Shown piece by piece: positions 5,361 to 13,107 of a stretch of DNA of 13,488 nucleotides (position 1 is the stretch's first letter; each line of letters opens with the position of its first letter). The stretch spans positions 1 to 13,488 of the forward strand of contig NZ_CAKRDI010000049.1 of assembly GCF_934309415.1 (NCBI RefSeq), read 5' to 3'. The notes beneath the pieces are model-generated. The model saw only the letters and a list, made by a program, of their open reading frames with translations. It made no database searches and was not told the DNA's origin. The DNA comes from an uncultured Mediterraneibacter sp. GTDB lineage: Bacteria > Bacillota > Clostridia > Lachnospirales > Lachnospiraceae. Made by a program: the position numbers and the translations under genes.

Positions 5361-6905
5361 TTATAATTTTATTTTCTCCAGATAATCAAGCAAGATAAAA
5401 GAATATTCATAGGCAACCATCGCTTCTTCTTCCTCAATATCCAGATCAAAAAGCTCTTCCATTTTATTTAACCGGTAAAAAAAAGTACTCTTATGAATAT
5501 GCAGTTCTTTAGAAGCGCGTACAGCATTTCTTCCGTTCATCAGGTAAGCTTTCAGTGTATTGGCGTAGTCTGTATTCTGCGCCTGGTCATGGTGGACAAT
5601 CTTGTAGATATCCGGATGAATCGTTGATTTTAAAGTCGTAAAGTCCCTGCACAAAGAAAACGTGTGTTGTAGAAAATGTTTTTTGTAGTAAACAATGTAG
5701 TCTTCAGGAGTCAGTGCATGTTCCGAATAAAAAGAACATAAAAAGGCAGCCTGTCTGTAAAAAATATGACTTTCTGTAATATTTTCATATGGAAAACTGA
5801 CATATGCATATAACTGGTGAAACTGAAGGAATGCATAGAATTTTGTCAGAGTCTTATCATTAAACGGACGGTATGAATCACATGGCAAAAGTACCGTCAG
5901 TTTTCCGTAGAAAAATACAGCCATACTGTTCGGAAGAATCGTTAAAATCTGTTGGTACAGATTTTTCAACTGCCGTTCAGAAGCAGGACTGGTCGGGGCT
6001 TCATCAATTACCATCAGAAAATAATATTTTCCGGGTTTATGTCCTAACTGAACCATATTATTTAAAATATAGTCTTTCTGACTGAAATGGCCTTCCAGAA
6101 GTTCGGTTAAAAAATATTCATAGTTCAGTCTTGTATTTGTCTGGAAACTCATTTCACGTTGCATCTCAATTCCAATCACATAGCAGAGCATATCAATATA
6201 TTCCAGATCTTCTTCTACAAATTCTCTTTGAATCTCACGGACACAGATATATCCGACAACAGAATGCTGGATTCGGATACTCTGATAAATCCATTTATAA
6301 GAATATTCTTTCATATATGTGATAAAAGGTACTGTTGTAGAATAAATCTTTTTAACTAATTCTTCATCCAGCATATTCTTCAATCTGGAATCTTTTACGA
6401 AAAAACGCCCATCTATTTCCTCAAGATCATTCGTATTAGCAACCTGTGGACTTGCAGCCAGTACGGAAAAACTTGTGTCACAAATGGTAATTGGATTATT
6501 TAAGTGCATGTATGCGATATTGGTAATTCCCTGAAGTCCACTGTTATGCTGTAACGTCCGAAACAGTTCTTCTTCTTTGCATTTTAATAAATGATGTTCA
6601 AGAATTACTGTCTGACATACGTTAAATACATCGTCCAGAGAAGCTTTTTGTGGAATACAAAGGCATCTGGAAGGAAGTTCACAATCCGGATAGTTTACAA
6701 TCAGCAGATATTCATCAATAGGAGCACCCAGAAAATGGGCAGCATCGCACAAATACAGGATATTTCCTCCGGGATGCGGTGAGTGACTCTGTTTTGAATT
6801 CCAGAATAAAACGGAATCAATCCCGGCACGGGAATGATAAGTTCCATGGATCTGAACATTTAAACTGGTTTCAAGACGTTTGATTATATTTTCTAAATAA
6901 GCCAT
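5361..6905 (-). CDS. PucR/CdaR-type transcriptional regulator
   Basis: This 514-residue protein ends with the helix-turn-helix of PucR/CdaR regulators. Around residues 447-486 it reads TLKAYLMNGRNAVRASKELHI, then HKSTFFYRLNKMEEL, matching the family pattern of a long helix, N-x-x-x-A-S/A-K-x-L, and H-K-x-T-x-x-Y-R-L. The preceding region (about residues 260-440) is of the kind that forms a degenerate GGDEF-like domain in this family. The N-terminal 250 residues look like an effector-sensing part, with an ICDTSFSVLAAS segment near 140-155 similar to GAF/PAS strands. The ATG at 6905 is preferred over a TTG at 6938 because GGAGGAG lies just before it. It is divergent from the redox operon starting at 7101, about 200 bases away, so it is most likely the operon's substrate-responsive activator. 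Family members respond to small molecules such as purines, sugars and amino acids. Confidence 0.82.
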   Translation of the reverse strand: MAYLENIIKRLETSLNVQIHGTYHSRAGIDSVLFWNSKQSHSPHPGGNILYLCDAAHFLGAPIDEYLLIVNYPDCELPSRCLCIPQKASLDDVFNVCQTVILEHHLLKCKEEELFRTLQHNSGLQGITNIAYMHLNNPITICDTSFSVLAASPQVANTNDLEEIDGRFFVKDSRLKNMLDEELVKKIYSTTVPFITYMKEYSYKWIYQSIRIQHSVVGYICVREIQREFVEEDLEYIDMLCYVIGIEMQREMSFQTNTRLNYEYFLTELLEGHFSQKDYILNNMVQLGHKPGKYYFLMVIDEAPTSPASERQLKNLYQQILTILPNSMAVFFYGKLTVLLPCDSYRPFNDKTLTKFYAFLQFHQLYAYVSFPYENITESHIFYRQAAFLCSFYSEHALTPEDYIVYYKKHFLQHTFSLCRDFTTLKSTIHPDIYKIVHHDQAQNTDYANTLKAYLMNGRNAVRASKELHIHKSTFFYRLNKMEELFDLDIEEEEAMVAYEYSFILLDYLEKIKL

Positions 6906-6916
6906 ATCTCCTCCAT

Positions 6917-6930
6917 CAGACAAATGTCTG
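6917..6930. promoter_or_regulatory. palindrome CAGACA-AA-TGTCTG in the regulator leader
   Basis: Perfect 6-bp arms (6917-6922, 6925-6930) lie two bases upstream of the regulator's GGAGGAG site. CAGACAAA recurs at 7069-7076, in the leader of the divergent gene and at a similar distance from its start. It could be an operator for autoregulation or an mRNA hairpin that limits translation. Low certainty. Confidence 0.35.
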
Positions 6931-6987
6931 AAAATCAATTCAATATCGATAAAAAATTTCGATTGCTGTAGCGTGCTTGTTAAAAAA

Positions 6988-7013
6988 ATAACTGATATAG
7001 TTATATTAATAAC
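6988..7013. promoter_or_regulatory. three ATAAC half-sites in the divergent promoter region
   Basis: ATAACT (6988-6993), AGTTAT (6999-7004) and ATAAC (7009-7013) alternate in direction. They form two overlapping palindromes: ATAACT-gatat-AGTTAT and GTTAT-atta-ATAAC. The cluster lies between the divergent regulator and operon, about 90 bases before the operon's first ATG. A TTGTTA at 6977-6982 with TATATT at 7002-7007 (19-base spacer) would be a poor promoter overlapping the array, as expected for an activator-dependent gene. Inference. Confidence 0.4.
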
Positions 7014-7100
7014 AATATAGCAAGAATTTTGTAAGCCTTCAATGGAAAAATGAAAAGAAGGAAAATTTCAGACAAAATTCGATCTGCACAGGAGGAAAAT

Positions 7101-8045
7101 ATGAGCTACAAAGTAATGGGAATTACCGCAGGAAGAAAGAACAGTAACAGTGAAATTTTGCTGAAAGAGGCACTTTTAGTCTGTCAGGAGGCGGGAGCCG
7201 AAGTCACAATGATCAATCTGAAAGACTATCATATTGAAGACTGCACGGGCTGTACATCCTGTACTGCAGGAATGGCACAGGGCAAAAATGTGGGCTGCGT
7301 TCTGGATGAGAAAGACGATAAGAAAAAGATTATGGACGTAATGTTAGATCAGGATGCAGTGATTATTTCTGTTCCGACATATGACTTAATGCCGAGCGCA
7401 CAGTATCTTACATTTGCGCAGAGAAGTTTAAGTTACGAGACAGCGTTCCTGGAGACGATCGGTGCAATTGAGCACAAAGACCGTGTGGCAGGACTGATTT
7501 CTGTCGGTGGTTCTACAAGAGCATGGCAGTCTATGGCTCTGGAAGGATTACAGGCAACAATGTTCACAACAGATATGAAAGTGGTAGATATGCTTCTTGC
7601 TACAAGAGTTCCGGGAGCAGCGCAGTGTCTGTTAGATGACGAGCTGATCGCAAGAGCTCATAAGATGGGGGAGAACATTATGAAAGCAGTGGCAACTCCG
7701 GCAGAGGAACGTACATGGCTTGGTGAGGAAGATATGGGATGGTGTCCGAACTGTCACAGTAATGCACTGGTATTAGGTGAAAAACAGTGGGACGGACTGC
7801 ACTATCCGGTAGAATGTCAGGTGTGTGGAGCCGGTGGTAATCTGGAGCAGACAGAAGATGGAAAATGGAAATTTGTAATTCAGGAAGATGGCCTGCTCAA
7901 AGACCGCACAACCGTAGAAGGCAGAGCCAAACATCTGGAAGAAATCGGAGCAACACAGGGTGGATTCTATGCAAATCCGGATAACAGAAAGATTGTTCAG
8001 GCGAAAATTGCAAAATATAAAAATCTTCAGTTCAAAACAATTTAA
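7101..8045 (+). CDS. Isf-like iron-sulfur flavoprotein with zinc-ribbon tail
   Basis: This 314-residue protein has an N-terminal flavodoxin-like NADPH-dependent FMN reductase fold: VMGITAGRKNSNSEILLKEA at 5-24 is the FMN-phosphate loop type, and VIISVPTYDLMPSAQ follows near 89-103. It carries C48-x2-C51-x2-C54-x11-C66, close to the compact cysteine motif that binds [4Fe-4S] in iron-sulfur flavoproteins (Isf). The C-terminal third has CPNC (215-218) and CQVCG (239-243), a zinc-ribbon or rubredoxin-like pair not usual in this family. The ATG at 7101 follows AGGAGG with good spacing; a longer frame from 7050 has no such site. It is the first gene of the operon, and 152 bases separate it from the next gene. 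It probably passes electrons to or from the larger subunits, or acts on a related substrate. Confidence 0.75.
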   Translation: MSYKVMGITAGRKNSNSEILLKEALLVCQEAGAEVTMINLKDYHIEDCTGCTSCTAGMAQGKNVGCVLDEKDDKKKIMDVMLDQDAVIISVPTYDLMPSAQYLTFAQRSLSYETAFLETIGAIEHKDRVAGLISVGGSTRAWQSMALEGLQATMFTTDMKVVDMLLATRVPGAAQCLLDDELIARAHKMGENIMKAVATPAEERTWLGEEDMGWCPNCHSNALVLGEKQWDGLHYPVECQVCGAGGNLEQTEDGKWKFVIQEDGLLKDRTTVEGRAKHLEEIGATQGGFYANPDNRKIVQAKIAKYKNLQFKTI

Positions 8046-8088
8046 GGGATATTGATGTTGAGCTATACCATGAAATGGAGCGGACTAC

Positions 8089-8175
8089 ATTACTGATGAC
8101 AGTATGTTTTAAACAGTAATTGAATTTTTAATACGCTCTGGTATTTGAAAAAAAACAGAACGGATAGAAGTTCTG
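8089..8175 (+). promoter_or_regulatory. intra-operon spacer with two weak hairpins
   Basis: The 152-base gap between the first and second operon genes holds ATTACTG/CAGTAAT (8089-8095, 8114-8120) and CAGAAC/GTTCTG (8156-8161, 8170-8175). The second hairpin ends ten bases before the ribosome binding site AAGGGAG at 8186-8192. Neither has a strong T-run. They may be mRNA processing or attenuation signals that set the ratio of gene products; the evidence is weak. Confidence 0.25.
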
Positions 8176-8197
8176 AGAAATTTGTAAGGGAGATTTT

Positions 8198-10321
8198 ATG
8201 ATTACAATAACAATTGATGGAAAGCAAATTCAGACAAAAGAGGGAACCAGTGTACTGGAAGCTGCGCTTCAGAATAATATCTATATTCCTCACATCTGTC
8301 ATCATCCGGATCTGAAAGATATCTCTGCATGTAAACTGTGTTATGTGCAGGTTGAGGGACAGGATCAGCCGGTGACATCCTGCATGTTAAAAGCAGAGGA
8401 TGGAATGAACATTGTTACAAAAAATGAGGAAATCCAGCATTTAAGAAATGTTGCGATGGAACTGATTCTTGCGGCACATCCGGAAGACTGTTCTACCTGT
8501 CCGAAATATGGAAACTGTGAGTTACAGAATCTGATCCAGTACATGGGGGTATCCGCAGCCAGAATGCGTACAAGAGTCAAAGGATTCGCATGTGAAAGTG
8601 GAAATCCACTGTATGATCATGATATGAACCGCTGCATTTTATGCGGACGTTGTGTAAGGGCATGTAATGATCTGAGAGAAGTGAAAGTGCTGCAGTATCA
8701 GAAAAAAGGCATGGAGACTTATGTCGGCACATTACATGAAAAATTATTGAAAGATGCAAACTGTCGGTTCTGTGGAGCGTGTGCGGAAGTCTGTCCGACC
8801 GGAACGATCAGAGACAAGATCAATTATCCTGCAACAGAGCGCAAAGAAAAACTTGTTCCATGCAGAAGTACTTGCCCGGCTAACACGGATGTACCGCGTT
8901 ATATCCGCTTTGTAAAAGAAGGAAAATACGATGAGGCCGCAGCAGTGCTTCGGGAAAAAGTACCATTTCCACTGGCACTGGGGCATGTCTGTTCCCATGT
9001 CTGTGAGGCAGAATGCAGACGTTGCGCAGTGAATGAGCCGATTTCTATTCGTAATATTAAGCGATATGCAGCAGAGAAGGACACTGGAAAATACTGGAGA
9101 AATAAAGGCAAGCAATTGCCGGATACAGGGAAGAAGATCTGTGTGGTAGGTGCCGGTCCTGCCGGACTGACAGCAGCTTATTATCTGAGAAAACAGGGAC
9201 ATAATGTAACGGTAAAGGAAGCACTTCCAAAAGCCGGAGGAATGCTGCAGTATGGCATTCCTTCATACAGAATGCCAAGAGAAGAACTGAATCAGGAAAT
9301 CGGATATATTCTGGAATCAGGAATCAGACTGGAAACAGGAGTCAGAGTTCAGAATGTAGCTGAGTTGAAAGAACAGTATGATGCAGTGCTGGTTGCAATC
9401 GGAAACCATGAAGGGACTTTACTTCCGATGGAAGGAAATGATGCGGAAGGTATTTTACTGAATATTGATTTTCTGAGAAATGCGTCTATGGGAAATGAGA
9501 CCGGAATCGGTAAACGTGTGATCGTACTCGGTGGAGGTAATGTTGCGTTTGACTGTGCAAGAACGGCCAAAAGACTTGGTGCCGAAGAGATTCATGTGGC
9601 ATGTCTGGAAGCCAGAGATAAGATGACGGCAGATGAGGAAGAAATCGAGCAGGCACAGGAAGAAGGAATTCAGGTACATCCTGCACAGAGCTTTGAGAAG
9701 ATTCTGAAAGGTGCTGATAACAAAGTAAGTGGAGTTGCATTCAGTGATATCCTGTCATTTACTTTTGATGAAAACAGAAGAGCGATCATTGAGAAAGCAG
9801 AAGACTCCTATCATGAGATCGAAGCAGATACGGTTATATTTGCAGTAGGACAGAGATGTGGTCTGAGTCCGGAAGCAGGGATGGAGCGAGGCAGAGCAAA
9901 TTCAATCAAAGCGGATGAAAAAACACTTGAGACAGATATCCATGGAGTATTTGCCTGTGGTGATGTAACTTATGGAACGAAATCAGTCATTCTTGCAATT
10001 GCAGATGGAAGAAAAGCTGCAGAATCCATCGACAAATATCTTGGAGGAGATGGCGACATTTCTGAAGTTCTGGCACCGGTAGAAGTACATCCGACAGCAA
10101 TCGGTCAGGTGGATGGATTTGGTTATGAACCGAGAAGAAAGCCACAGATTTTAAGTGCCGAAGAGCGAAAAGATAATTTCAAAATGGTAGACCACGGAAT
10201 CTGTGATGCGGATATCTGTGGAGAGGCTTCAAGATGTCTGCAGTGTGATCTGAGAATGGATATTACCAGATCAAAGATCTGGAGTGATTATGACGGAGAG
10301 GAGGGAGAAAAGACATGTTAA
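8198..10321 (+). CDS. NuoG-like Fe-S / GltD-like NAD(P)H:FAD oxidoreductase subunit
   Basis: This 707-residue fusion should accept hydride from NAD(P)H and feed a chain of iron-sulfur centres. In order it has: a [2Fe-2S] domain with C34, C45, C48 and C62; a NuoG-type cluster site H94, C98, C101, C107; two [4Fe-4S] ferredoxin motifs at C146/149/152/156 and C189/192/195/199; and a cysteine-rich linker typical of GltD (C222, C226, C265, C269, C273, C276). A GltD-like flavoprotein follows, with FAD loop GAGPAG at 318-323, nucleotide loop GGGNVA at 445-450 and CGD near 587-589. After the second nucleotide loop comes CLEAR (469-473) instead of the usual Y-R-R, so Glu471 suggests NADH rather than NADPH. 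AAGGGAG precedes the ATG. The last 7 bases overlap the next gene, pointing to coupled translation and a stable complex. Confidence 0.85.
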   Translation: MITITIDGKQIQTKEGTSVLEAALQNNIYIPHICHHPDLKDISACKLCYVQVEGQDQPVTSCMLKAEDGMNIVTKNEEIQHLRNVAMELILAAHPEDCSTCPKYGNCELQNLIQYMGVSAARMRTRVKGFACESGNPLYDHDMNRCILCGRCVRACNDLREVKVLQYQKKGMETYVGTLHEKLLKDANCRFCGACAEVCPTGTIRDKINYPATERKEKLVPCRSTCPANTDVPRYIRFVKEGKYDEAAAVLREKVPFPLALGHVCSHVCEAECRRCAVNEPISIRNIKRYAAEKDTGKYWRNKGKQLPDTGKKICVVGAGPAGLTAAYYLRKQGHNVTVKEALPKAGGMLQYGIPSYRMPREELNQEIGYILESGIRLETGVRVQNVAELKEQYDAVLVAIGNHEGTLLPMEGNDAEGILLNIDFLRNASMGNETGIGKRVIVLGGGNVAFDCARTAKRLGAEEIHVACLEARDKMTADEEEIEQAQEEGIQVHPAQSFEKILKGADNKVSGVAFSDILSFTFDENRRAIIEKAEDSYHEIEADTVIFAVGQRCGLSPEAGMERGRANSIKADEKTLETDIHGVFACGDVTYGTKSVILAIADGRKAAESIDKYLGGDGDISEVLAPVEVHPTAIGQVDGFGYEPRRKPQILSAEERKDNFKMVDHGICDADICGEASRCLQCDLRMDITRSKIWSDYDGEEGEKTC

Positions 10322-13107
10322 AGTACATAAAAAATAAAGAGGCAGAAGAGAAGATTACGGAGATGAGTGCAGAACAGCTTCTGAGCAAAATTACAGAAAT
10401 AAAAGATCCGGTTACAAATATGACAGTCGGAGAAATGATTTCAAACTTAAAAGCTACTGTTCAGAATGCAAAAATGAATGTCGTTGTTTCTTTGGCAAAT
10501 GGCGATATCGACCAGATGCTTGCCTGTCTGTATCAGGACAATGCACAGGGAGTCATGCAGGGGGCAGAAGCGCTGGCAAAGATTCTCGGAGCGGAAAAAA
10601 TTGTGTTAATTCTTCCAGAATCCTTACAAGAACAGGAAACAGAAAAGAATTTCAGTTGTCATGCAAATGACAAAAAGGAATGTCCGACAGAAATTTTATA
10701 TGGAATGTGTTCACGCATGGTCTATACAACAGATCTGCTCGTACATCCGATCACCTGTGTGAAATGTTTTGAGGCATTGAAGGACGAGGATGTTCATAAA
10801 ACAATTATTTCCGTAAATGGACAGGCACCGCAGGAAGTAGAGTATGGAACAACATTAGATCAGATAATTCCGGAAGCAAAGGCAGTCAGAATCGGAAACA
10901 GAATCTGGGGAGCAGAAGTAAGAACACAGAGATTAGATGAATCATTTCCAATTGAAAATGGTGTCATTGAGACATATTCGGATCAGGAATGTGTTGTGAA
11001 AAAAGCGGAAGAGTTTGTCGGAAAACTGCGTGAAAAGTGCTGTGGAAAATGTGTGTTCTGCCGGGAAGGTCTGGCTCAGATTCACGAGGGATTAAAAGAT
11101 CTGACAGATGGAAAAGCGAAGCTTACGGATATTGATCTGATGAAAGAATTAGCTGAGATTATGAAGAGGCAGAGTAACTGCAGCTTAGGACAGACAGCAC
11201 CTGGAATGATACTTGGACTGCAGGAATATTTTGCAGAAGATATCAAAGAACATCTGGCTGGAAGATGTCATACTCTGGCATGTAACGCACTGGTTCACTA
11301 TTACATTGATCCAAAGAAGTGTAAAGGTGATGGTCATTGTGTGGAAAACTGTCCGAAAAAAGCAATTGACGGCGGAAAAGATTTTATCGGTGTTGTAGAT
11401 GAGTTTGAATGTGATAAGTGCGGCAAATGTATGGAAGTCTGTGCAAATGGTGCCATCAAGTGTGTAACCGGAAGATTACCAAAATTACCGGATGAACCGA
11501 TTGCATTGAAGAAATCAGATGATACAGCAGAGACAAAGGAAAGAAAAACAAGAAAACGTGTAAAACCAAAAGCTCTGTTATACAAGAAAAAAGTAACCGG
11601 TTTTACAGAAGATCCCAACAGTCAGACAGTGAAAGTGAAAGGAAATTTACCTATGAAAGAAATGAATGCAGATGTTATTATCGTAGCAGCCGGACCGGCA
11701 GGACTTGCAGCAGCAGTTACAGCCGGTGAGCATAATTTATCCTCCATCGTATTTGAAAAATCAAATACAACAGGCGGAGCAGCCAACATGGGAATGGGAC
11801 CACTTGGTATTGATACGAAAGTACAGAGACGTGGATTCAACCAGATTACAGTGGAAAAAGCACTGGATCTTCATATGGATTACACACACTGGAGAGTCGA
11901 TGCGGATCTGGTATCTACTTATTTCCACAAATCAGCAGATACAATTGAATGGCTGGAAAGCATGGGTGTAGAGTTTGCCGGAGCATTTAAATATTTCGCA
12001 GAGTCCGAGGCAACATGGCACATCGTAAAACCGGAAAACGGAGTAATCGGACCACGTGCGGCAGGTGGTATGATCAAAGCACTGACCAATCGTGCAAAAG
12101 AACTTGGTTCTCAGTTTGAAATGGAAACAAGTGTTGTAGAACTGATCAAAGAAGGGGATAAAGTCTGCGGAGTAATCGCAGTAGATAAAGATGGACAGCA
12201 GATCAAAGCAACGGCTAAAGCTGTCATTGTTGCAACAGGTGGATTTGGAAATAACAAGGAAATGCTTGCAAAAGAGTTTAACCTGCATCTGTGCGAAGAC
12301 TTCTATCCATTTATGGTTCCGGGAATCGTCGGAGATGGTCTGAACATGATGTGGAAAGCAGGGGCTATGAAATACGGTGCAGGAATCGAAGCGATTTACC
12401 AGCTTCCGGATAACCTGAACTGGTTCTTACTGGATGCAGTTCTCCGTCAGCCGAACCTTCTGATCAACCAGCTTGGAGAACGTTTCATGAACGAGGACCG
12501 CATGGGTAATACAACATTTACAGGAAATGCACTTGCGTTGCAGCCGGGCAATTATGCATACTGCATCATGGATGGAAATATCCTGAAACACTATAAGAAA
12601 AACGGACCGGATATCGAGGATATCGTACATCCGCAGGAAGCATTCTTTGGATTCGAGCAGCAGGCAGCACTGGCTGTAGAACAGGGATATGAGGCTTATT
12701 TTGAAGCTGAGACACTGGATGAGCTTGCAGAGAAACTGCAGATGGATCCGGAAGTGCTGAAAAATACAGTGGAAGAATACAATGAAATGTGTGATCTTCA
12801 TTGTGATACACAGTTCAATAAGAATCCGAAATTCCTTCATAAGCTTACAGGAAAAGGAAAATATCTGGTTGGTAAGTTCTATCTTGGAGCATACGGAACA
12901 ATCGGAGGAATCCGCATTAATAAATATTGTGAAGTACTGGATGATAACTTTATGCCGATTGAAGGTCTGTACTCAGCTGGTTCTGATGCAAATACGATTT
13001 ATGGTGATAGTTATAACTTTACACTTCCGGGAAATACAATGGGATTCGCAGTAAACTCTGGAAGAATGGCCGGTGAATCTGTGGCTGAGTATATTCAGGA
13101 GCTGTAG
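10315..13107 (+). CDS. degenerate NuoF / ferredoxin / fumarate-reductase-type flavoprotein fusion
   Basis: This 930-residue protein is the likely terminal reductase. Residues about 50-150 resemble a NuoF core (VVSLANGD...GVMQGAEALAKILGAEKIVLILPE) but lack the glycine-rich FMN/NADH loop. An SLBB domain lies at about 160-195. The NuoF-type [4Fe-4S] domain follows (C243, C246, C249, C289). Next is a two-cluster ferredoxin, site 1 CKGDGHCVENCP (C336, D339, C342, C346) and site 2 complete (C366, C369, C372, C376), then a lysine-rich linker at 395-450. The rest, about 452-925, is an FAD_binding_2 flavoprotein with loop VAAGPAG at 457-463, RFMNEDR at 723-729, GTIGG at 861-865 and LPGN at 904-907. 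No signal peptide is seen, so it should be cytoplasmic. A GAGGAGGGAG site precedes the ATG, which overlaps the upstream stop. The substrate is unknown; the fumarate carboxylate-binding residues are not recognisable. Confidence 0.85.
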   Translation: MLKYIKNKEAEEKITEMSAEQLLSKITEIKDPVTNMTVGEMISNLKATVQNAKMNVVVSLANGDIDQMLACLYQDNAQGVMQGAEALAKILGAEKIVLILPESLQEQETEKNFSCHANDKKECPTEILYGMCSRMVYTTDLLVHPITCVKCFEALKDEDVHKTIISVNGQAPQEVEYGTTLDQIIPEAKAVRIGNRIWGAEVRTQRLDESFPIENGVIETYSDQECVVKKAEEFVGKLREKCCGKCVFCREGLAQIHEGLKDLTDGKAKLTDIDLMKELAEIMKRQSNCSLGQTAPGMILGLQEYFAEDIKEHLAGRCHTLACNALVHYYIDPKKCKGDGHCVENCPKKAIDGGKDFIGVVDEFECDKCGKCMEVCANGAIKCVTGRLPKLPDEPIALKKSDDTAETKERKTRKRVKPKALLYKKKVTGFTEDPNSQTVKVKGNLPMKEMNADVIIVAAGPAGLAAAVTAGEHNLSSIVFEKSNTTGGAANMGMGPLGIDTKVQRRGFNQITVEKALDLHMDYTHWRVDADLVSTYFHKSADTIEWLESMGVEFAGAFKYFAESEATWHIVKPENGVIGPRAAGGMIKALTNRAKELGSQFEMETSVVELIKEGDKVCGVIAVDKDGQQIKATAKAVIVATGGFGNNKEMLAKEFNLHLCEDFYPFMVPGIVGDGLNMMWKAGAMKYGAGIEAIYQLPDNLNWFLLDAVLRQPNLLINQLGERFMNEDRMGNTTFTGNALALQPGNYAYCIMDGNILKHYKKNGPDIEDIVHPQEAFFGFEQQAALAVEQGYEAYFEAETLDELAEKLQMDPEVLKNTVEEYNEMCDLHCDTQFNKNPKFLHKLTGKGKYLVGKFYLGAYGTIGGIRINKYCEVLDDNFMPIEGLYSAGSDANTIYGDSYNFTLPGNTMGFAVNSGRMAGESVAEYIQEL

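Follow-up and report, generated by a model that had tools for sequence, protein, structure and literature searches.

A putative NADH-driven, Fe-S-wired ene-reductase locus of an uncultured Mediterraneibacter and its association with genes of flavonoid breakdown

Results and discussion

The locus and its proposed function

The window analysed here, a stretch of 13,488 nucleotides of contig NZ_CAKRDI010000049.1 from an uncultured Mediterraneibacter sp. (Lachnospiraceae), contains at positions 5361-13107 a minus-strand regulatory gene and three plus-strand genes; the products of the latter (P0002, P0003 and P0004) bring together parts related to complex I, glutamate synthase and fumarate reductase. 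This arrangement raises the question of where such a system takes its electrons from and which compound receives them. The answer that we favour, with a probability of about 55% on the basis of sequence comparisons, is that P0003 and P0004 would constitute an NADH-driven ene-reductase of anaerobic flavonoid breakdown, wired by iron-sulfur (Fe-S) centres, with an FLR-family partner (P0002) for flavones. The open reading frames (ORFs), domains and gene order of the original prediction were verified, with some corrections of start sites and domains. The genes are the following (aa, amino acids).

5361..6905, minus strand: PucR-type regulator with a C-terminal HTH_30 domain (Pfam PF13556, E 3.6e-14) and a ribosome site before the ATG at 6905
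7101..8045, plus strand: P0002, FLR-family FMN flavoprotein of 314 aa (7d38, E 3e-33)
8198..10321, plus strand: P0003, electron-input subunit of 707 aa, with a NuoG-like 2Fe-2S/4Fe-4S part (residues 1-210) and a GltD-like FAD/NAD(P)H part (residues 215-684)
10315..13107, plus strand: P0004, reductase subunit of 930 aa, as defined by domain searches, alignments and a structural model

In the mechanism that we propose, P0003 and P0004 would form a soluble cytoplasmic NADH:enone reductase. NADH would reduce the FAD of the GltD-like domain, and single electrons would then travel through the 4Fe-4S clusters of this domain, the NuoG-type clusters, the N3 cluster of the NuoF part and a ferredoxin domain to a second FAD. 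The latter, lying in a fumarate-reductase fold, would saturate an aryl-conjugated C=C bond by passing a hydride to the beta carbon of the aryl enone, and the proton may come from a tyrosine. The likeliest substrates would be flavonoids, a chalcone or flavanone being converted to the dihydrochalcone on which phloretin hydrolase acts, so that the complex would stand in for the OYE-type reductase Fcr/EnoR. P0002 could take the preceding step, from flavone to flavanone, and may draw its electrons from the Fe-S module of P0003 and P0004; expression of the set would be turned on by the divergently encoded PucR-type protein. Complex formation, the use of NADH, the direction of electron flow and the substrate are what we infer from the comparisons below, the substrate assignment for the window being drawn by analogy with its relatives.

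The electron path through P0003 and P0004

The closest solved relatives of P0003 are the large subunits of NfnABC (PDB 9n5u, 9bov) and StnABC (8oh5), in which electrons pass from a pyridine nucleotide through Fe-S centres to a NuoF-type partner. As in those proteins, a GltD-like FAD/NAD(P)H part and a NuoG-like Fe-S part are united in one subunit, a fusion that had been read correctly from the start. P0003 differs from StnC, a protein of 1172 aa with an FdhF-like domain, in having only 707 aa, and it differs from Stn also in the nucleotide site, in which the arginine pair is Leu-Glu. Of 46 distinct ortholog segments, 45 have Leu/Ile-Glu at the place of this arginine pair of GltD and Stn, and the pair is retained in 12 of 13 distinct paralog segments (identical segments listed once); the replacement supports, by inference from sequence, NADH as the electron donor.

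The domains of P0004 are arranged as follows.

10315..10959, plus strand: reduced NuoF fold that lacks the FMN/NADH loop (about residues 1-215; sequence and model alignment)
11005..11253, plus strand: NuoF N3-type 4Fe-4S domain (residues 231-313; C243, C246, C249, C289; PF10589)
11299..11442, plus strand: two-cluster ferredoxin domain (residues 329-376; PF13237)
11653..13104, plus strand: FAD_binding_2 ene-reductase domain (residues 447-930; PF00890, E 4.5e-47, Pfam span 453-899)

No Pfam match to an FMN/NADH domain was found in P0004, and residues 1-240 contain no Gly-Gly pair. In the structural model, 383 residues of the segment 1-384 align with a 479-residue stretch of 9bp5_B, so that about 95 residues are absent from the NuoF part. 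The FMN/NAD+ site present in the NuoF-type subunit of Stn and NfnABC is missing from P0004, and the NuoF-like part is not an NADH dehydrogenase; NAD(P)H would therefore have to enter at the GltD-like domain of P0003. A further difference from Stn and NfnABC is the presence of an ene-reductase flavodomain, joined to the NuoF partner or encoded by a neighbouring gene. Residues C243, C246, C249 and C289 are kept in 47/47 rows over 800 aa. In the ferredoxin domain, D339 (window positions 11329-11331) replaces a cysteine ligand of the first cluster, a position occupied among 47 relatives by C in 19, S in 17 and D in 8. The single cytoplasmic electron path put forward in the original prediction was supported. 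A NuoE-like 2Fe-2S subunit was not found among the 9 window proteins scanned and could be encoded elsewhere. One relative of 789 aa (P0124), made of half of the 707-aa protein plus the FAD domain, resembles an assembly chimera and was left unused.

Conservation of the gene set

The genes are conserved beyond chance, and the condition named at the outset as refuting the original prediction, a lack of joint conservation in other genomes, does not hold. Among 24 loci found with P0004 in genome contigs (locus set A), P0003 was present in 22 (the exceptions being L019 and L024), a P0002 relative in 7 and a PucR relative in 9, divergent in 7 of those 9; a PucR-type regulator, as originally read, was likewise supported. 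In a family sample of 299 genomes, taken from the family of the Clostridium sp. 12(A) genome (locus L018), a P0003 ortholog with E below 1e-180 was found in 24, one of them split across two contigs. When one best locus per P0003 genome was considered (locus set B, n=24; stretches of 10-20 kb, some ended by the contig), 21 loci held the FAD domain, 22 the NuoF part, 7 PucR and 8 an FLR relative. The window, L001, L006, L085 and L087 each have a single gene for the NuoF and FAD domains; in most of the other loci listed the two are encoded by separate genes, which are adjacent, so that the P0004 fusion joins existing neighbours. Among 145 relatives of genome G003, matches at E <= 1e-100 were present in 12 (G003 included); apart from that of G003 itself, the best match was 67% identical in the reductase domain. 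The reductase-domain comparison excluded duplicate rows, rows containing stops and rows of fewer than 440 aligned residues; protein P0013 of KM106-2 equals the L085 copy across this domain.

Association with phloretin hydrolase

The domain of phloretin/2,4-diacetylphloroglucinol (DAPG) hydrolase, PF18089, counted at E <= 1e-20, is rare, being present in 16/299 genomes of the family sample and in 0/14 controls. It was found in 13 of the 24 genomes with P0003 versus 3 of the 275 others (Fisher p 7e-14; this and the following p values are uncorrected for kinship), and in 12/23 versus 3/275 when the seed genome was left out. A class sample of 391 genomes rendered P0003 in 6, PF18089 in 7 and both in 3 (p 7e-5) or, without the seed, PF18089 in 2/5 P0003 genomes versus 4/385 (p 0.002). 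The class sample is not fully independent, since it has genomes (G001 and G269 at least) in common with the family sample.

Of the loci fetched, those closest in the FAD domain were L001 (91% identity), L085 (76%), L087 (74%) and L091 (73%). In the first three, the hydrolase gene and a DUF1097 gene lie within the same gene run as the set. The hydrolase gene immediately precedes P0003 in L001; in L085 and L087 it follows the P0004 homologue, at a distance of 12 bases and of one gene, respectively. For the L085 hydrolase, the match to the solved phloretin hydrolase (4e-30) is stronger than that to PhlG (1e-21). The gene row of the distant locus L154 comprises, in this order, hydrolase, FLR relative (60% identical to P0002), FAD domain, P0003 and NuoF part. 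In L018, genes for SDR, cyclase, BKACE, thiolase, CoA-transferase and hydrolase flank the set, and the SDR matches 5g4k, which we take to be phloroglucinol reductase, at 6e-103. Judging from the accessible part of PMC10470551, L018 holds genes for three out of the four types of enzyme that make up the phloroglucinol pathway described there.

According to the available text of PMC11868195, the FLR, Fcr and Phy genes are consecutive in C. butyricum, and Fcr is an oxidoreductase that depends on FAD and contains an alpha/beta barrel; the same enzyme set is used in the accessible portions of PMC8398226 and PMC11170127. Our complex resembles Fcr (EnoR type; as portrayed in the available parts of PMC11868195 and PMC8398226) in the proposed reaction and in a neighbourhood with FLR and phloretin hydrolase, but the Oxidored_FMN (OYE) barrel domain occurs in none of P0002-P0004. 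Among 8 neighbours scanned in L162-L164, which belong to class-sample genomes with PF18089 and without P0003, there was no OYE reductase in place of the complex, so that the replacement of Fcr by the complex is unproved; a gene for an SDH-type FAD_binding_2 flavoprotein lies beside the hydrolase in L162 and L164. Such a flavoprotein is fused to the hydrolase, in proteins of 813-818 aa, in G237 and G269, two of the three family-sample genomes with PF18089 and without P0003. Proteins of this size, in which a flavoprotein of the fumarate-reductase type is united with DAPG/phloretin hydrolase, are encoded at L122:8425-10866 and L123:6676-9132, and the L123 copy adjoins phloroglucinol genes.

A reductase wired by NuoG, GltD and NuoF parts is not described in the parts seen of the literature searched, outside which most subscription journals lie, in keeping with the earlier statement that no characterised enzyme of this exact combination is known. 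Flavonoid breakdown is screened in genomes by means of FLR, Fcr, CHI and hydrolase homologues. If our reading is right, there is a second, structurally unrelated chalcone/flavanone reductase, and flavonoid-degrading bacteria have been overlooked. Moreover, the gene set would offer a concrete NADH-linked source of electrons, the origin of which was left open by the discoverers of FLR, and it would represent an electron module of the complex I/Stn type rewired to an organic acceptor.

Several observations weigh against the flavonoid assignment. There is no hydrolase or phloroglucinol gene in the window, and PF18089 is missing from 11/24 P0003 genomes. Within the stretches fetched for locus set B, hydrolase or phloroglucinol genes occur in only 6/24, or in 10/24 if thiolase/PTB/BUK are counted, which leaves 14/24 with none (SDR matches below 33%, present close to some loci, were disregarded, the threshold being 55%); gene clustering of locus set A places the hydrolase in L001 and L018 only (2/24). 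No hydrolase was seen in L091, the fourth-closest locus, and no 3-hydroxyacid dehydrogenase of the kind given in the accessible part of PMC10470551 was found among the L018 genes scanned. PF18089 also lies, with an SDH-type flavoprotein, inside a polyketide synthase cluster (L164:7201-16130) and is therefore no proof of flavonoids. P0002-like proteins, with 846 matches, are far commoner than the complex, and a second FLR of F. plautii, a paralogue, is inactive on apigenin (PMC8398226, available part). The nearest named model of the FAD domain is a vinylphenol reductase, for a smaller phenolic. Finally, only 2-3 candidates per genome were scored in the two samples, the number being three in the family sample, so that copies of P0003 may have been missed there.

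The FLR-family flavoprotein

P0002 belongs to the FMN_red proteins and has a tail with a CxxC...CxxC (Zn-ribbon-like) stretch. Among solved structures, its only relative at E <= 0.001 is 7d38 (E 3e-33, residues 21-324), the entry named in the available text of the flavone-reductase paper PMC7862272, and the homology extends over the full length, C-terminal tail included. Residues M10, S14, N15, W149, H271 and I275, quoted in that text, match the letters of the 7d38 chain. The substrate residues H271 and I275 of FLR are aligned with H278 and I282 of P0002, which together with W142 are invariant in 31/31 rows. On the other hand, P0002 is distant from 7d38, and in the alignment with it W149 of FLR stands opposite an Arg and the G106 region falls in a gap; in an alignment without 7d38, the Trp of the GGSDW motif of an FLR-type paralogue stands opposite the invariant W142. 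The CxxCxxC...C motif that may have prompted the Isf reading is present in P0002 and equally in 7d38, and the flavoprotein, originally taken to be Isf-like, is better described as FLR-like. P0002 is a candidate for the reduction of flavones or enones, or for accepting electrons from the complex.

The flavodomain and alternative functions

The model of the FAD domain of P0004 has the fold of fumarate/urocanate reductases (flavocytochrome c, UrdA) and, nearly as well, that of ketosteroid dehydrogenases. Alignment with flavocytochrome c places G731 at R402, Y860 at H504 and T903 at R544, and among 55 relatives these columns hold G in 50 and Q in 5, Y in 55, and T in 48, respectively. The roles of these residues are those that we assume from fumarate reductases, R402 of Fcc3 being presumably the catalytic arginine, which is replaced by G or Q in 55/55. 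The proton-path pair E378/R381 corresponds to D707/R711, each in 50/55 relatives. The domain differs from the fumarate/urocanate reductases, therefore, in lacking their catalytic/carboxylate residues and in being fed by Fe-S centres from a NuoF-type domain, not by haem. To judge from these residues, a neutral phenol-type acceptor would fit better than a carboxylate one.

It is possible, though considerably less probable than a role in flavonoid breakdown, that the complex uses NADH to reduce small phenolics (vinylphenols or hydroxycinnamates) and works mainly as an electron sink, in which case the flavonoid genes would lie nearby as a result of a plant-phenolic diet. The nearest NCBIfam model over the whole reductase domain is VprA (NF053717), matched at full length with 307.6 bits, and FMN_bind plus FAD_binding_2 proteins (P0104-P0123), the named ones from the lactic acid bacteria Streptococcus and Liquorilactobacillus, are about 60% identical to the domain and appear to be the same reductase on a different electron module. 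The lack of a hydrolase in the window and in many loci would fit as well. However, the score is half the equivalog cut-off of VprA (600), and a shared diet alone can hardly explain why the three closest fetched loci have a hydrolase within the gene run, nor the gene order of L154. The P0004 domain also differs from VprA in being wired to a GltD/NuoG/NuoF module.

It can also be the case, although this is doubtful, that the Fe-S module serves chiefly as the electron donor of the FLR-family protein, the FAD_binding_2 domain taking a further substrate of the same pathway. As stated in the available part of PMC7862272, FLR cannot take NAD(P)H directly and its electron transfer chain is still to be explored; FLR-family genes are present in 8/24 loci of set B and 7/24 of set A, but in 16/24 of the best loci, including L085 and L087, there is no FLR relative within the fetched stretch. 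A variant of the flavonoid reading, in which the complex would be an energy-conserving enzyme of flavonoid respiration, is equally doubtful: the downhill reduction of a chalcone by NADH would be coupled to ferredoxin reduction (electron bifurcation via the GltD-type FAD and the ferredoxin domain), FLR would also be fed, and sister genomes would then use a thiolytic, not hydrolytic, ATP-yielding cleavage.

It seems unlikely that the complex has no link to flavonoids and reduces steroids, bile acids or other enones. The root-mean-square deviation of the FAD-domain model is 2.7-3.4 A from ketosteroid dehydrogenases versus 4.8-5.8 A from flavocytochrome c fumarate reductases, and the domain has invariant tyrosines; but the gene set is associated with the flavonoid pathway, and no steroid gene was seen among the neighbours scanned, these scans being no full survey. 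A diet-derived unsaturated compound is still the likeliest class of substrate, in line with the original suggestion of a diet- or host-derived one, but the unsaturated acids named with it are disfavoured because the fumarate-type residues are lost, and a reductase of fumarate, urocanate or acrylate is the least probable of these readings.

The regulator and other observations

The probable start of pucR is the ATG at 6905, preceded by GGAGGAGAT, which gives a protein of 514 aa instead of the longer ORF from the TTG at 6938 of the earlier reading; its HTH_30 domain scores 52.7 bits versus a cut-off of 27. The pucR leader is spanned by a candidate operator, as yet unproven, that was located by script.

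6916..6931, no strand: perfect palindrome TCAGACA-AA-TGTCTGA

P0002 probably starts at the ATG at 7101, preceded by AGGAGG, and its listed homologues are mostly of 314-315 aa. The genes of P0003 and P0004 overlap, the second beginning at 10315 and the first ending at 10321. No ORF of more than 46 aa was found between P0004 and the end of the window, and Rfam and tRNA scans of the window gave no match. Promoter and terminator scans gave numbers similar to those of shuffled sequences: 24 versus 20.6 (standard deviation, sd, 4.7) and 6 versus 5.5 (sd 2.6), respectively. A riboflavin-degradation neighbourhood of Lachnospiraceae (PMC12934955) was dropped as a candidate, the gene list in the accessible part of that paper being without the present set.

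Outside the window, DUF1097 adjoins the hydrolase at L001:5561-6085, L085:14569-15144 and L087:5627-6133. The numbers of DAPG hydrolase matches in G004 (L006) and G005 (L013), 7 and 12, of which 6 and 10 at E < 1e-20, represent an unusual expansion. A thiolase of the SCP-X type (with matches including PhlC and benzoylsuccinyl-CoA thiolase) is accompanied by DUF35 and a phosphotransacylase in 7/7 loci L133-L139, with butyrate kinase in 4 of them, and also at L017:15299-19607; at E < 1e-100 the thiolase is present in 8/24 P0003 genomes versus 1/275 others (2/275 at 1e-40). With these enzymes an aryl ketone could be split by means of CoA, whereby ATP would be saved.

Within the window, the 97-aa ORF at 4968-5292 matches the end of an AAA-ATPase_like domain, and after it comes a hairpin with 14 pairs that resembles a terminator. 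In the region 5361-13107, the GC content of the three structural genes is 42-45%, and that of the regulator and the left part 36-37%.
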